Positions 21,684 through 27,671 of a stretch of DNA of 64,000 bases are shown here, one piece after another (the first letter of the stretch is position 1; every line of letters begins with the position of its first letter). The notes under the pieces are model-generated. The model saw nothing but the letters and a program-made list of their open reading frames with translations, was not told the DNA's origin and did no database searches. Position numbers and translations under genes: made by a program. The stretch comes from Spirochaetota bacterium (GTDB lineage: Bacteria; Spirochaetota; UBA4802; JAFGJZ01), in the NCBI GenBank assembly GCA_027858855.1, contig JAQIBV010000018.1, forward strand, positions 1-64,000, given 5' to 3'.

Positions 21684-23633
21684 ATGTCAATTACAAGTTT
21701 TCCGCAGAGTCCTAATAAAGTTCACCCAGAGATCCCTAATGCGGTTGGTTCTCGTAACTCTTTAGCTCAGGAAGGGCGTGATAAGATAAACGAGGCGGTT
21801 ACTATACTTGATGAAACTACTGATAAAGTAATGAACCATATAGAACATAAACTTCCGGAAGAAGTTCTTGTTAAGATGGATATTACTGGTGGTATCAGAG
21901 AGAAACTGTATAACTACATTAACCAGACATATGTGAATATGTTTAACCGTTACACAGTAACAATGGAAGATGAGTTTGTTAAAAAAGTTCGTGATTTTGT
22001 TGACCGTGAAGAGTCAAAGGGGCTTGCCCGTTATACTCCACGTGAAATGACCGAGCTTCTCGATAAGATAGGTGGTGCTGACAAGTTCAATACCGGAGAG
22101 GTCGAGAAATCGATGATTAACATGTATGGTCACTTACAGGGTCACATTCAGCGTGGAATGAATGATCTTGAGAATGAGACCAATGCAATTCTTCGTCAAA
22201 AAACTGATGTTGGAGCCTTTATCCGTGGTGAAAACGCTTATGCTATTTTAAAATGTGTTATTAAAGACAATGAAATGCGTCCGAAATATGTTAATGATGT
22301 TAAACTTTCTCTTAACATCTTGGATTCTGAACTTATCTCTCCAATTTACCACTATCAGGTAACGGTCGAGGCACTTCTTAAAGATGCGATTCAAAAGCAT
22401 ATTCAGGATCTTGTAGATCGTCAGATTGATGAACTGAAAGAGGAGTTGGTTGATCAGGGTAATTCTGAGATGACCGGTTCCGAGATTATGTTCGAAAAAG
22501 TGAAACGTGTCGAGAATTTTACGGATGATGAAGCCGAAGACGAAAAATCCCGTCGTTACACTATTCTTGCAAAGAAATTCTTGGACAAGATTGAAGGTCT
22601 TCGTGCTGAAATTGATATAGAAGATTATGATCCTCTTAACATTCGTGAGAATATCAAGTTTGTTATTGATGAAGAGAATATTCGTAATCGTGGATATAAC
22701 ACCACAATCAACGCAATTACTTCCATTCTTGATACCTCTAAACTTGGTTATCAGGTATGTGATAACATGAAAAACGCACGTGTATGTTTTATTAAAGAGT
22801 ACGAAGAGCTCGACAAAACAATACTTCCTGATGAGCGTTATGATATTAAACTTTGTTACATGGATCAGAATCAGATCCGTGAGGCTTGTAAAGAGTTTGA
22901 CCGTCAGATGGATGCTTTCACACGTGAGATACAGCTTCTAACTGATGTTACCGATGCTCATTATCAGTCTACTAAACGTTTCCGAGCTTTGAAAGACTTT
23001 GATGATCTTGCAAAACGTTTAATGAGTCGTGAATGGTTGCGTCGTCGTGAAGCTGAAAGACAGGATCCGGCTTATGTTCACCCTGATGATGTTGGAATGC
23101 TCTATTGTGAAAACTCGTTTGTTGAGAAGAATAACCGAACTTATGAAGACCGAATCAAGTATCTTAAAAACAAACTTCGTCATCTTAGAGAGCATCTGAA
23201 CAAGATTCACGGTTATCAGAATCCGGTTGAGCGTGTAATCCTTGACGATAAAATACTTTTCATTACCAAGAAGTTTAACGAATTTACATATGAGGTTAAT
23301 CCTCATCATATTCAGCCTGGTCTTACTCTTGACCTTAATGTAACAACCATAAAACGTAAGCAGTTTATGCTTAAGAATATGGCAAACGTGCTTAATGAGT
23401 TTCTTTATGGTGTATCAAAAGGATTCCAGGATGCGGCTTTTGCTCAATTCAAGCGTCGTCGTTCAACTATCCGTACGGATATTGATCAGTCGTTTGTCAC
23501 AGAAGAAGATAGCGATAGTATTTTTCAGATGGCATATGGAGCTGCAAACGCTGCATCTGCTGCTGCTGATGTTGCTGGCACTGCTGATCTTACTCCAAAG
23601 AAAGGCCGTGGATCAGGACTTAAAGAACTGTAA
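21684..23633 (+). CDS. cfpA: Cytoplasmic filament protein A
   Basis: A 649-residue protein that closely fits treponemal CfpA from its first residues (MSITSFPQSPNKVHPEIPNAVGSRN) onward. CfpA polymerises into the ribbon of cytoplasmic filaments that runs along the cell beneath the periplasmic flagella. Its loss in Treponema disturbs cell division and chromosome partition. The sequence is helical and highly charged without signal or membrane segments, ending in an Ala-rich stretch and a basic tail. It is a single transcript with strong promoter and terminator, and codons such as CGT are frequent, as expected for an abundant structural protein. This gene is the best evidence that the DNA is spirochaetal. 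Confidence 0.97.
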   Translation: MSITSFPQSPNKVHPEIPNAVGSRNSLAQEGRDKINEAVTILDETTDKVMNHIEHKLPEEVLVKMDITGGIREKLYNYINQTYVNMFNRYTVTMEDEFVKKVRDFVDREESKGLARYTPREMTELLDKIGGADKFNTGEVEKSMINMYGHLQGHIQRGMNDLENETNAILRQKTDVGAFIRGENAYAILKCVIKDNEMRPKYVNDVKLSLNILDSELISPIYHYQVTVEALLKDAIQKHIQDLVDRQIDELKEELVDQGNSEMTGSEIMFEKVKRVENFTDDEAEDEKSRRYTILAKKFLDKIEGLRAEIDIEDYDPLNIRENIKFVIDEENIRNRGYNTTINAITSILDTSKLGYQVCDNMKNARVCFIKEYEELDKTILPDERYDIKLCYMDQNQIREACKEFDRQMDAFTREIQLLTDVTDAHYQSTKRFRALKDFDDLAKRLMSREWLRRREAERQDPAYVHPDDVGMLYCENSFVEKNNRTYEDRIKYLKNKLRHLREHLNKIHGYQNPVERVILDDKILFITKKFNEFTYEVNPHHIQPGLTLDLNVTTIKRKQFMLKNMANVLNEFLYGVSKGFQDAAFAQFKRRRSTIRTDIDQSFVTEEDSDSIFQMAYGAANAASAAADVAGTADLTPKKGRGSGLKEL

Positions 23634-23654
23634 AACAAAAAAGTTAAGAATACA

Positions 23655-23687
23655 AAAAAGGGAGTGCATCTGCACTCCCTTTTTTTG
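23655..23687 (+). terminator. Intrinsic terminator of cfpA
   Basis: Arms GGGAGTGCA and TGCACTCCC flank a two-base loop, preceded by A residues and followed by eight T residues. Confidence 0.95.
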
Positions 23688-23808: not shown

Positions 23809-24741
23809 ATGATAAATTCAACGTTTTTTGCGCTTGGTTCAAAAGCTTCTTTCAATCAGGCTTTGCGCCACTTCTATAAAGTAAATGATCTTATAGACGA
23901 TATGGAATCACGTCAGAATATTGCGGATCTTATAAACGAGCAGCTTGATGAAGAGGATATTTTGATGGATCAGGTTCTTCCTGTTATCGGATCAATTGTT
24001 AGAGATAAATATCAGTATACATTCCATTCTTTTGACATTCCATTTGCAATTAATGATTTTAAGAAGATTACGGATGAAACTAATAAATGGACTGCGCTTG
24101 ACATAGTTATGGTCTATTATAATCCGAATGGACAGATATATGTGATCAATCCTAAAAATGAAGACGGATGGGAGAGGGTTCGCGAACTTGCATGTGATCA
24201 TCTTCTTGTTATTTATGCAAAATATCTAAAAGGTGATGGAGATCCTAAAATTGAACAGGAAGCAATTACTGCTATTGAAGAGATGATTGCTGGTAAGGAC
24301 GTATATATCAATAAAGATTTTGCCGACTCGTCAATTGCTCCTCGCAAGGTAGTTAAGCCTAAACCACAGCCTCAATCAGCGGCCAGTGGCGCTGTAAAGC
24401 CAACCGGCAAACGTCGCGCTACGCCAAAATACTCTGTTCAGGTTACTAACGAACTTTTTCACAATGGCAATGTTGAAGCATGGAAAAAAATAATTCAGAG
24501 CTTTAAGGCAAAACATCCTGATCTTGAAGTGGTGATTTTTTATGAGGGAGAACTCATAAACGATATTAATGCCCTTTTTAAATGGGGAAAGGTCAAACAT
24601 CACGGATTGATCATGTTTCAGGTAGTTGGTGAAAATATTCGTAGTGTATCCAAGCTTCAGAAGTATCTTTTTGAGGGTGCAAGCCAGCGTTTTGAACAGT
24701 TTTTAAAAGGTCAGGTGGGGCAGGTCCTTAATCTTTTTTAG
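23809..24741 (+). CDS. Conserved spirochaete protein next to cfpA
   Basis: About 310 residues from the ATG at 23809, which has a GGGGGGAG site at good spacing; the GTG at 23791 is part of that site. There is no signal or membrane segment. Two globular parts are joined by a basic, Pro-rich linker (about 170-205, KPKPQPQSAAS). The C-terminal part has YSVQVTNELFHNGNVEAWKK and ends in an amphipathic helix. The family is not recognised, but its place between cfpA and a PPDK-like gene matches the gene order recalled for T. pallidum TP0746-TP0748. A role in filament assembly or attachment is an inference from that conservation. Confidence 0.72.
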   Translation: MINSTFFALGSKASFNQALRHFYKVNDLIDDMESRQNIADLINEQLDEEDILMDQVLPVIGSIVRDKYQYTFHSFDIPFAINDFKKITDETNKWTALDIVMVYYNPNGQIYVINPKNEDGWERVRELACDHLLVIYAKYLKGDGDPKIEQEAITAIEEMIAGKDVYINKDFADSSIAPRKVVKPKPQPQSAASGAVKPTGKRRATPKYSVQVTNELFHNGNVEAWKKIIQSFKAKHPDLEVVIFYEGELINDINALFKWGKVKHHGLIMFQVVGENIRSVSKLQKYLFEGASQRFEQFLKGQVGQVLNLF

Positions 24742-24847: not shown

Positions 24848-27451
24848 ATGAGCAATAATGTGATTTTTTTTAATAAAAATATTACACCTGTCGAGGATGA
24901 GGTTCGTGACAGGCTGGGAATTCGTGGACGGCGCGCTATTGATTTAGCGCATGTTGGTTTACCAATTGTGCCGGGCTTTGTTATAGATTCAGAGTTAACA
25001 AAAAAACTTCCTGATGTGAATATTAAACAAGTCATTAAAACCAACGTTGGTCTTATTGAAAAGGAGATGAAGAAGGTCTATGGAGACCCAGAAAATCCTC
25101 TTCTATTGAAGGTTGTACTCAGTTCGGATCTTAATGTCCCGTTTTTTCCATCGTTTCATAATATTGGACTGAATGATGAGACTGTAAAGGGATTTGCGAA
25201 ACAAACTAGTGACGAGAAATTTGCCTATGGTGAATACGCCTATATGCTTCGCGGTCTTGGTATTAAGTTGTGTGATGCGGATGGATCTGGTTTTTCAGCA
25301 TCTAAGAAAGATACAGGTAAATTTAGTGTTGAAAAAGCTCAGAAAGAGATTGATGAAGACAAAAAGCACCTCGATTATCTTCTTGAGGGTGATATATATG
25401 ATCAGCTTGTATCTATTTTAAAAATATCCTCTGAAAAATTATGTGATTCGGATATTGATGTAGAAAATTCCATGTCCATAATGGTTCAGGCGATGGTTTA
25501 TGGTAATCTGGGAGAGAATTCGTATTCCGGTAGTTACTATACGCGTGACATTATCAATGGAGATAGTGCAATTTCAGGATCTTTTTTACAGAATGAGTTT
25601 GATATTTTTCACAAGAAGCCTAAAGAAATAAATAAAATTGGTAAAGAGTACTACTCCACTCTTCAGGAAATAGGACAGAAAATAGAGGAGCAGTTTAAAG
25701 AAATTCGCTCTATCAAGTTTACAATAGAAGAGGGTAATCTTTGGTTAATTGAGCAGCGTGAAGTTGACGAAAATTCTACTCAGTCACACCTTATCATGCT
25801 GTTGGAGCTTCAAAAGAAGGGTGTTATTGATAAAGATTATCTTGTTAAACATGTTCAGCCTGCGCAGCTTAATGAGTTATTGCATCCTGTTATTGATAAT
25901 TCTACAGTAAAAACCATGAAAAATGTACGAAGTGGTATTTCAGGTTCAACGGGTGCTGCTATTGGAAGGGTCTTCTTTTCTACCGAACGACTGCTTGAAG
26001 AGCATAAACGTGCCATTATGCATGGTAAAGAGACTAACTTCATTCTTTGTATGGAGGCTACCTATGCGGAGGATGTTAAGGCTATTGAGGTTGCACAGGG
26101 GGTTATCTCTACCGAGGGTGGTTATTCCTCGCATGCTCCTGTTGTTGCCCGTTCTCTGGGTAAGGTGGCAATGGTTCAACCTCAAATGAAAATTAGAGGA
26201 AACAGCTTTACTATTGGAAATGTAACTGTCAAAGAGGGGGCATATGTTTCGTTAAATGTTCCCTATTATGAAGAACCAACTATCTATTTCGGAAGAGCAG
26301 GCCTAATAGAACCCGACTTTGAAAAGAATGGTTTGCTTGTTTTTGTAAATATTCTTCAGGAATATATAACTGACTTTGATGTCCGTGCTAATGCGGATCA
26401 GCCACGGGAAACAAAGCTTTCACGTAATTTCCTGGCACAGGGCATAGGTTTATGCCGTACTGAACATATGTTCTTTAATGAAAAGCGTATTATGAAGTTT
26501 CGTGAAATGATTCTTTCTTCAACCGAAGCTGGTCGAAGAAAGGTTCTTAAACAGTTACAGCCAATGCAACGTTCGGACTTTTACGAACTGTTTAAGATAA
26601 TGAAAGGGTTTCCGGTAACTATAAGGTTGCTTGATGCGCCACTCCATGAGTTTTTACCACGAACCAGTGATTCTATGAAAGAGTTTATAAAATATATGCA
26701 GGCAAAGGATAAGTCTGTGAAAGCTTCTGAAATTGAAGCAATATGCTCAGATTTATCCGAAATGAATCCAATGCTAGGGCATCGCGGTTGCAGAGTCGCG
26801 GTAACATATCCTGAAATCTACGAAATGCAGTGTCGCGCTATCTTTGAAGCGGTTTGCATGTTGAAGAAAGAGGGGATTGAGGCTATACCCGAGATAATGA
26901 TTCCAGTTGTTATGACAGAGACTGAGTTTAAGTTCGTAAAAAATGGTAAAAAGATTGAAGGAACAACCGTAAAAGGAATCCGTGACATCAAAGATGAAGT
27001 TCTGGAAGAGTACGGAGTCGATGATATTAAGTATTGCGTGGGTTCAATGGTCGAACTTCCCGCTGCAGCATTCAGAGCCGGTAAGATTGCTCAGTATGCC
27101 GAATTCTTTAGTTTTGGTACAAATGATTTGACACAAACAACTTATGGATTATCTCGTGACGATGTAAACTCTTTCTTTCCAAGTTATACCCTGTACGATT
27201 TGATGAAAAACAATCCGTTTCAGGTGTTGGGTGAAGAAGTAAAAGAGATAATTGGAATTGCTACCCAACGAGGACGACTTACTCGGCCTAATTTAAAACT
27301 TGGTTTGTGTGGCGAACATGGTGCTGATCCTGAGAATATTGAATTCTGTAAAAAAATAGGGCTCAATTATGTCTCAACTTCTCCATATTCAATACCATTG
27401 GCAAAATTGGCAATAGCTCAGCTTAATCTTGCAGAAAGGGAAGAGGAGTAA
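24848..27451 (+). CDS. PPDK-like protein with an altered nucleotide-binding domain
   Basis: An 867-residue protein with the full domain order of pyruvate phosphate dikinase. The phosphohistidine domain is well kept (EGGYSSHAPVVARS, His429), as is the C-terminal PEP/pyruvate barrel (GLCRTEHMFF, NPMLGHRGCRV, FFSFGTNDLTQTTYG, GLCGEHGADP). The N-terminal ATP-grasp part is not: compared from memory with the Clostridium symbiosum enzyme, the GGKG lysine is Arg, the RSGA arginine is replaced within LLLKVVLSSDLN, Glu323 becomes Lys290 and Gln335 becomes Glu302. ATP-driven chemistry is therefore doubtful, though phosphotransfer between PEP and His429 may remain. It is annotated as PPDK in treponemes and lies beside cfpA there too. 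Confidence 0.85.
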   Translation: MSNNVIFFNKNITPVEDEVRDRLGIRGRRAIDLAHVGLPIVPGFVIDSELTKKLPDVNIKQVIKTNVGLIEKEMKKVYGDPENPLLLKVVLSSDLNVPFFPSFHNIGLNDETVKGFAKQTSDEKFAYGEYAYMLRGLGIKLCDADGSGFSASKKDTGKFSVEKAQKEIDEDKKHLDYLLEGDIYDQLVSILKISSEKLCDSDIDVENSMSIMVQAMVYGNLGENSYSGSYYTRDIINGDSAISGSFLQNEFDIFHKKPKEINKIGKEYYSTLQEIGQKIEEQFKEIRSIKFTIEEGNLWLIEQREVDENSTQSHLIMLLELQKKGVIDKDYLVKHVQPAQLNELLHPVIDNSTVKTMKNVRSGISGSTGAAIGRVFFSTERLLEEHKRAIMHGKETNFILCMEATYAEDVKAIEVAQGVISTEGGYSSHAPVVARSLGKVAMVQPQMKIRGNSFTIGNVTVKEGAYVSLNVPYYEEPTIYFGRAGLIEPDFEKNGLLVFVNILQEYITDFDVRANADQPRETKLSRNFLAQGIGLCRTEHMFFNEKRIMKFREMILSSTEAGRRKVLKQLQPMQRSDFYELFKIMKGFPVTIRLLDAPLHEFLPRTSDSMKEFIKYMQAKDKSVKASEIEAICSDLSEMNPMLGHRGCRVAVTYPEIYEMQCRAIFEAVCMLKKEGIEAIPEIMIPVVMTETEFKFVKNGKKIEGTTVKGIRDIKDEVLEEYGVDDIKYCVGSMVELPAAAFRAGKIAQYAEFFSFGTNDLTQTTYGLSRDDVNSFFPSYTLYDLMKNNPFQVLGEEVKEIIGIATQRGRLTRPNLKLGLCGEHGADPENIEFCKKIGLNYVSTSPYSIPLAKLAIAQLNLAEREEE

Positions 27452-27473: not shown

Positions 27474-27671
27474 ATGGCTGAAATAACAAAGGATATGACT
27501 TTCGGTGATCTGCTTCAGCAGAAGCCGGAGGTTGCGGAAATTCTTTCATCTTACGGTTTGCATTGTATTGGTTGCCACATTGCTGTTTTTGAAACAATAG
27601 AACAGGGTGCAAAGGCACATGGTTTGACAGATGAGCAAGTCGACGAGATGATGAAAAAGATAACTGCATAA
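27474..27671 (+). CDS. DUF1858-domain protein
   Basis: A 65-residue protein of the DUF1858 family, small helical domains related to the N-terminus of ScdA/RIC iron-sulfur repair proteins. The conserved CIGCH pair (Cys near 31 and 34) is present and suggests metal or redox function. Start with GGAGAG upstream; 22 bases downstream of the PPDK-like gene, so the two may share a transcript ending at the terminator at 27674-27707. Confidence 0.85.
   Translation: MAEITKDMTFGDLLQQKPEVAEILSSYGLHCIGCHIAVFETIEQGAKAHGLTDEQVDEMMKKITA

Follow-up and report, generated by a model that had tools for sequence, protein, structure and literature searches.

A pyruvate phosphate dikinase paralogue with a replaced nucleotide site is encoded in a conserved module with cfpA in Spirochaetota

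PPDL compared with described systems

Pyruvate phosphate dikinase (PPDK, EC 2.7.9.1; structures 1kbl and 1dik), Enzyme I and HPr of the phosphotransferase system (PTS), the mycobacterial protein VadK and the cytoplasmic filament of treponemes are the systems against which we compare a protein of 867 residues that is encoded, with an ATG start, at positions 24,848 to 27,451 of a Spirochaetota genome fragment of 64,000 nucleotides (GCA_027858855.1, contig JAQIBV010000018.1, positions 1 to 64,000), referred to as the window; all coding features given below lie on its forward strand. This protein, and the family of PPDK paralogues to which it belongs, is termed PPDL. With PPDK it shares the three-domain layout, the phosphohistidine motif and the PEP/pyruvate site including Cys831; it differs in that the nucleotide- and Mg-binding residues and the NAQGED stretch are replaced, in a GK.IEG insert, in its position in a separate clade and in its location in a filament-linked gene module. 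The likeness to the PTS lies in the charging of a histidine on a swivelling domain by PEP and in the adjacent gene for Orf3, a histidine-bearing protein that is HPr-like in a structural model. On the other hand, PPDL has a degenerate ATP-grasp domain where Enzyme I has its HPr-binding domain, Orf3 is devoid of the H-x-R-P motif, no EII is encoded nearby and an EI-like protein as well as a real HPr are present elsewhere in the window genome.

A precedent for the conversion of a PPDK into a regulatory phosphohistidine protein is provided by VadK (Rv1127c) from Mycobacterium tuberculosis, which is described as a PPDK-derived histidine kinase that still autophosphorylates (PMC13400623). PPDL, in contrast, is left with the PEP half after loss of the ATP half, and VadK has no described connection with a filament. 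With the CfpA filament of treponemes the likeness is one of shared gene module, PPDL being co-regulated and co-fractionated with CfpA in Treponema denticola. This filament has been described as consisting of a single protein, and its loss in T. denticola leads to chromosome condensation, cell filamentation and loss of infectivity (PMC3398590). In the literature searched, neither PPDL nor Orf3 has been proposed as a part of it.

The assignment of the window protein is based on its open reading frame, Pfam and NCBIfam profiles, alignments and a structural model. Pfam families PF01326, PF00391 and PF02896 are matched in the domain order of PPDK (ATP-grasp, phosphohistidine, PEP), the degenerate nucleotide domain (residues 1–340; 24,848 to 25,867) scoring 29.8 bits with PF01326. 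The PPDK equivalog profile TIGR01828 yielded 687.8 bits, which is below its cut-off of 843.45, and the partial match to TIGR01417 for PTS Enzyme I (104.4 bits) did not reach the curated cut-off of 341.7. The model (pLDDT 89.6, pTM 0.86) predicts a PPDK fold with confidence: the best Foldseek matches were all PPDK, end to end, PPDK also gave the best phmmer matches, and Foldseek further links the model to PTS Enzyme I. The pyruvate kinase barrel, PF00224, is absent from the Pfam matches. A pyruvate kinase-like enzyme, one of the options raised by an earlier reading of the sequence alone, would moreover depend on an ADP site, and two real pyruvate kinases, in addition to a canonical PPDK of 900 amino acids, are encoded elsewhere in the genome; this option is therefore not supported.

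The cfpA-Orf3-PPDL module

In the window, PPDL is preceded directly by Orf3 (23,809 to 24,741; 310 amino acids, TP0747/TDE0843 family) and this in turn by the gene for cytoplasmic filament protein A, cfpA (21,684 to 23,633; 649 amino acids; NF040882, 869.6 bits vs. a cut-off of 500). Between cfpA and Orf3 a 14-bp hairpin with A6/T6 flanks (23,654 to 23,685), terminator-like in both directions as judged by consensus match only, may uncouple the abundant cfpA from transcription of Orf3 and PPDL. A promoter scan gave matches no more numerous than expected by chance. Immediately 3' of PPDL lies an open reading frame for 65 amino acids with a CIGC motif (27,474 to 27,671), which presumably resembles DUF1858-type proteins.

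The sequence-only reading had pointed to a conserved linkage with cfpA, and the distribution of the genes bears this out. Among 392 Spirochaetota genomes, 127 contain both PPDL and cfpA and 260 neither of them, PPDL occurs by itself in one and cfpA in four, i.e., 127 genomes with both genes stand against five with only one (p = 2e-97, a value that takes no account of relatedness). In the single PPDL-only genome the gene is located at a contig edge; one of the four cfpA-only genomes carries a divergent, frameshifted PPDL adjoining cfpA, and another, G203, a truncated PPDL. Orf3 was detected in nearly the same set of genomes (129 of 392) and directly precedes PPDL in 72 of 79 loci with a median gap of 16 bp, and cfpA is found no more than 3 kb away from PPDL in 63 of 71 loci; families f31, f32 and f6 have cfpA that does not adjoin PPDL. 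Comparison of gene content and order thus establishes the PPDL gene as a member of a conserved module, cfpA-Orf3-PPDL. A very divergent cfpA (28% identity, 803 amino acids) was noted in genome G286 (locus L140, 3896 to 6307), which yielded no Orf3 and no PPDL; joint loss of the two is possible.

Orf3 itself matches nothing in Pfam or among PDB sequences beyond a weak hint at the N-terminal domain of NusA, to which its N-terminal half (residues ~1–165) shows a weak profile match (E 0.01). Its AlphaFold model (mean pLDDT 86) contains a C-terminal domain (residues ~206–300; 24,424 to 24,708) with the element order b-aA-b-b-aB-b-aC, as in HPr, and Foldseek retrieved many HPr chains from several organisms with probabilities up to 0.99 and target-normalised TM scores of about 0.5–0.70, at whole-query E-values of 0.04–0.5. 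His218 (24,460 to 24,462), invariant in 43 of 43 members, precedes the first modelled helix of this domain (residues 219–235), which is longer than that of HPr, and would be its N-cap, the place of the phosphohistidine in HPr. The HPr profile PF00381 matched none of the 43 Orf3 members, FHNGN is present instead of the HPr motif H-x-R-P, and the P value of 0.013 obtained with hhalign for Orf3 against HPr was just ahead of the decoys and not significant. An HPr-like fold of the C-terminal domain is supported by the model; to regard Orf3 as an HPr homologue or a phosphocarrier is a speculative extension of that predicted fold.

Replacement of the nucleotide site and conservation of the PEP half

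Residues of PPDK are numbered according to the Clostridium symbiosum enzyme (1dik/1kbl), and 66 spirochaete PPDLs were aligned with 21 canonical spirochaete PPDKs, one of them from the window genome. Each of five substitutions in the nucleotide site that had been named from the sequence alone was found in the alignment with the C. symbiosum enzyme. Lys22 corresponds to Arg26 in a GIRG motif (24,923 to 24,925), which is arginine in 66/66 PPDLs and in 0/21 canonical PPDKs; Arg92 to Val90 (25,115 to 25,117; valine in 64 and isoleucine in two of the 66); Asp321 and Glu323 to Ser288 and Lys290 (25,709 to 25,717), with lysine or arginine at position 323 in 64/66 and a variable residue at 321; and Gln335, in an ungapped register, to Glu302 (25,751 to 25,753; E, D or N in 66/66). 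Arg135 is also gone, being Tyr132 in the window protein and Phe or Tyr throughout the family, and the glycine loop NAQGEDVVAG (positions 276–285) is replaced across the 66 PPDLs, consistent with the reported loss of its NAQGED part. The site is kept in all 21 ordinary PPDKs, including that of the window genome. When named genomes were added (111 PPDLs vs. 49 canonical PPDKs), arginine took the place of Lys22 in 111/111 PPDLs, and Lys22, Arg92, Asp321, Glu323 and Gln335 were kept in all 49 canonical sequences, from which one further row labelled canonical had been left out as a non-orthologous open reading frame with 23% identity.

In the second alignment a gap of one residue sets the invariant Gln303 against Gln335, so that the register is ambiguous by one residue. 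In the model, strands 287–294 and 297–305 form a hairpin with an EEG turn, and counted without gaps from this turn Gln335 falls on Glu302, which favours the ungapped register; the other four losses are independent of it. A shift of ATP-binding residues was considered: only Gln303 could be such a case, as a shifted Gln335, and this is disfavoured by the register of the hairpin. An artefact, a sequencing error or a local mutation was ruled out because the loss is family-wide (66/66 and 111/111). In the PPDK of Flaveria, Arg95 and Glu324 bind ATP directly and their mutation would likely abolish activity (PMC5507339); by position they are the counterparts of Arg92 and Glu323. PDB also holds entries for K22A and R337A mutants of PPDK. 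At the level of the aligned sequences, the nucleotide/Mg site of PPDL is gone and different invariant residues have taken its place.

This replacement is accompanied by an uneven rate of change along the protein. Mean identity in the N-terminal domain is 43% among PPDLs vs. 67% among canonical PPDKs, and in the PEP domain it is 64% in both. Arg26, Lys88, Ser92, Arg287, Glu294 and Gln303 occur in 66/66 PPDLs, unlike in canonical PPDK, and R26, K88, V90, K/R290, R287, E294 and Q303 make up a new residue set in and around the old ATP site. A further PPDL-specific trait is the insert GKKIEG in the PEP domain (residues 700–705; 26,945 to 26,962), in which G700, K701, E704 and G705 are present in 66/66 and I703 in 65/66 sequences, and which is absent from canonical PPDK. 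As the new residues are invariant within a fast-evolving domain, PPDL appears to have been repurposed and not to have decayed. Decay to a pseudogene was rejected, since nearly all genomes have an undisrupted reading frame and the replacement residues are invariant.

The phosphohistidine, His429 in the window (26,132 to 26,134; His455 in C. symbiosum), is histidine in 111/111 sequences, and the acid/base residue of the PEP site, Cys821 (27,308 to 27,310; Cys831), is cysteine in 66/66. Arg537, Arg593, Glu736 and Asn759 are likewise kept in the window protein, and all six positions (His455, Arg561, Arg617, Glu745, Asn768 and Cys831) are invariant in the 66 spirochaete PPDLs, which stem from many families. 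In agreement with the sequence-only reading, the residues of the phosphohistidine and PEP/pyruvate sites are therefore intact in all spirochaete PPDLs examined. What that reading had missed are the invariant new residue set, the HPr-like Orf3 between cfpA and PPDL and the co-existing canonical PPDK, which occurs in the window genome and in most PPDL genomes. PPDLs form one clade (SH-aLRT 100).

Natural variants delimit what is conserved. In G203, presumably Treponema primitia ZAS-2, PPDL comprises 586 amino acids, is devoid of the entire ATP domain, keeps the His and PEP sites and overlaps the upstream Orf3 by 4 bp. The module is also present on contigs labelled SAR324/Deltaproteobacteria (L193, L194 and L198), where PPDL is followed by cfpA; in L194 and L198 another copy of cfpA precedes PPDL. 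These three non-spirochaete PPDLs lack residues of the PEP site (Arg561, Asn768 or Asp769, in some cases also Arg617 and Cys831); His455 is kept in 3/3, and so is the Orf3 histidine in both Orf3 sequences aligned. Judged from these sequences, one lineage can do without the ATP domain and another probably without PEP catalysis; association with CfpA and Orf3 appears to persist across the variants. The conserved function of PPDL thus need not be PEP catalysis.

Treponemal homologues and the possible function of PPDL

In Treponema pallidum, the coordinates of PPDL and cfpA as well as residues A869, P655 and E501 agree with TP0746 as published (PMC10013896; PMC3373638). TP0746 is a PPDL, with Arg28, Val92, Arg303 and Glu315 at ATP-site positions, so that the loss of this site in homologues of TP0746, for which an alignment had been suggested earlier, extends across the PPDLs including that of T. 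pallidum. TP0746 has been stated to make pyruvate and ATP (PMC10013896), and the main text of the paper on the metabolic model iTP251 makes no mention of PPDK. Neither a canonical PPDK nor a pyruvate kinase was found in the T. pallidum genome, which encodes a GTP-dependent PEP carboxykinase and the beta subunit of a Na+-transporting oxaloacetate decarboxylase (loci L269 and L273); a route from PEP via oxaloacetate to pyruvate is possible as another outlet for PEP. Single-nucleotide variants A869T and P655S have been described for TP0746, the former at 77–83% in some in vitro cultures (PMC10013896). In culture, selection may act on this gene for reasons unrelated to glycolysis.

The genome that we take to be that of T. 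denticola ATCC 35405 contains reading frames of 682, 341 and 935 amino acids in the order cfpA-Orf3-PPDL, matching TDE0842–0844, and the 935-residue protein at the position of TDE0844 is a PPDL that has lost the ATP site. By mass spectrometry of the T. denticola envelope fraction, TDE0844, named ‘pyruvate phosphate dikinase’, and the CfpA protein TDE0842 were among the 16 major proteins, and the occurrence of CfpA there was ascribed to anchoring at the inner membrane (PMC3931704); TDE0842–0844 were jointly repressed in co-culture (PMC3914990). Presence in the envelope fraction, an indirect indication of binding to CfpA, would be unusual for a soluble enzyme of glycolysis but is what a filament partner should show. 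PPDL of Treponema vincentii OMZ 806 (L208, 5995 to 8675) is split into two overlapping reading frames, as by a frameshift that may reflect a sequencing error or a real loss.

Taken together, we consider it somewhat more probable than not (roughly 0.55) that PPDL is a PPDK paralogue which has acquired a new function and is no longer a dikinase: it would take up phosphate from PEP on His429 without forming ATP and act on the filament, in a PEP-dependent manner, as a regulator or scaffold. Like PPDK and PTS Enzyme I, PPDL would be phosphorylated by PEP, on His429, with release of pyruvate; AMP and PPi could not accept the phosphate, and PPDL would be located on or beside the CfpA filament, its phosphorylation state reporting the PEP/pyruvate ratio and controlling assembly, bridging or anchoring. 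In Escherichia coli, PEP and pyruvate levels affect cell shape, albeit by an unrelated route (PMC13426487). Orf3, via the invariant His218 at what would be the position of the HPr phosphohistidine, is tentatively put forward as the likeliest acceptor, and the domain that once bound ATP would then serve for docking or as a sensor. A complete PTS-like relay, from PEP via His429 of PPDL and His218 of Orf3 to CfpA or membrane anchors, with the ATP domain for docking or sensing, would couple the glycolytic state to filament structure and is doubtful as a whole. Of the roles suggested by the sequence-only reading, that of a regulatory protein or of a structural partner to the filament is the best-supported class; of that interpretation, the loss of the ATP site, its extension to TP0746 homologues and the linkage to cfpA stand along with this class, and only the pyruvate kinase-like option lacks support.

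The main rival to a PEP-charged switch is a PPDL that bridges or anchors the filament purely as a structural pseudoenzyme, its PEP and His sites serving folding or ligand sensing. Tomography by Izard in 2004 reportedly revealed components that bridge and anchor treponemal filaments, and the three non-spirochaete cassettes that have lost PEP-site residues yet keep cfpA, Orf3 and PPDL fit such a role, as does the presence of PPDL beside CfpA among the major T. denticola envelope proteins (PMC3931704). A pure scaffold, however, should not need the six His and PEP residues that are invariant in 66 spirochaete PPDLs and kept even where the ATP domain is absent, and we regard this explanation as rather unlikely.

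A working dikinase with a rebuilt site for a nucleotide or another phosphate, catalysing the ATP-forming glycolytic step from PEP to pyruvate, is assumed by annotation and the T. pallidum literature (PMC10013896) and would agree with the want of any other PPDK or pyruvate kinase in that organism, with the intact fold and His/PEP sites and with the conservative nature of the exchange of Lys22 for Arg. It is nevertheless improbable, given the non-conservative exchanges of Arg92 for Val, Glu323 for Lys/Arg and Arg135 for Phe/Tyr, the first two at positions whose Flaveria counterparts bind ATP (PMC5507339), the TIGR01828 score below the cut-off, the canonical PPDK in most PPDL genomes, the PPDL without an ATP domain and the PEP carboxykinase and oxaloacetate decarboxylase subunit of T. 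pallidum. More far-fetched still is a metabolic enzyme that turns PEP into pyruvate and Pi or transfers phosphate to another small molecule in a basic, remodelled pocket, with the cfpA linkage as a historical relic: the old ATP site carries basic residues, Arg26, Lys88 and Lys/Arg290, that are invariant or nearly so and could bind an anion, but strict co-occurrence with cfpA and Orf3, co-regulation, co-fractionation and PEP-site loss outside the spirochaetes all point to the filament.

As far as the sequences tell, the ATP pocket has been lost from PPDL across most filament-bearing spirochaetes, T. pallidum included. TP0746, which the literature treats as the ATP-forming last step of glycolysis in T. 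pallidum, is thus very probably not a dikinase, and this bears on how the organism makes energy. PPDL and Orf3 emerge as new candidate partners of the treponemal cytoplasmic filament and, if the PEP half of PPDL is active, it would provide a direct link from a central metabolite to a bacterial filament.
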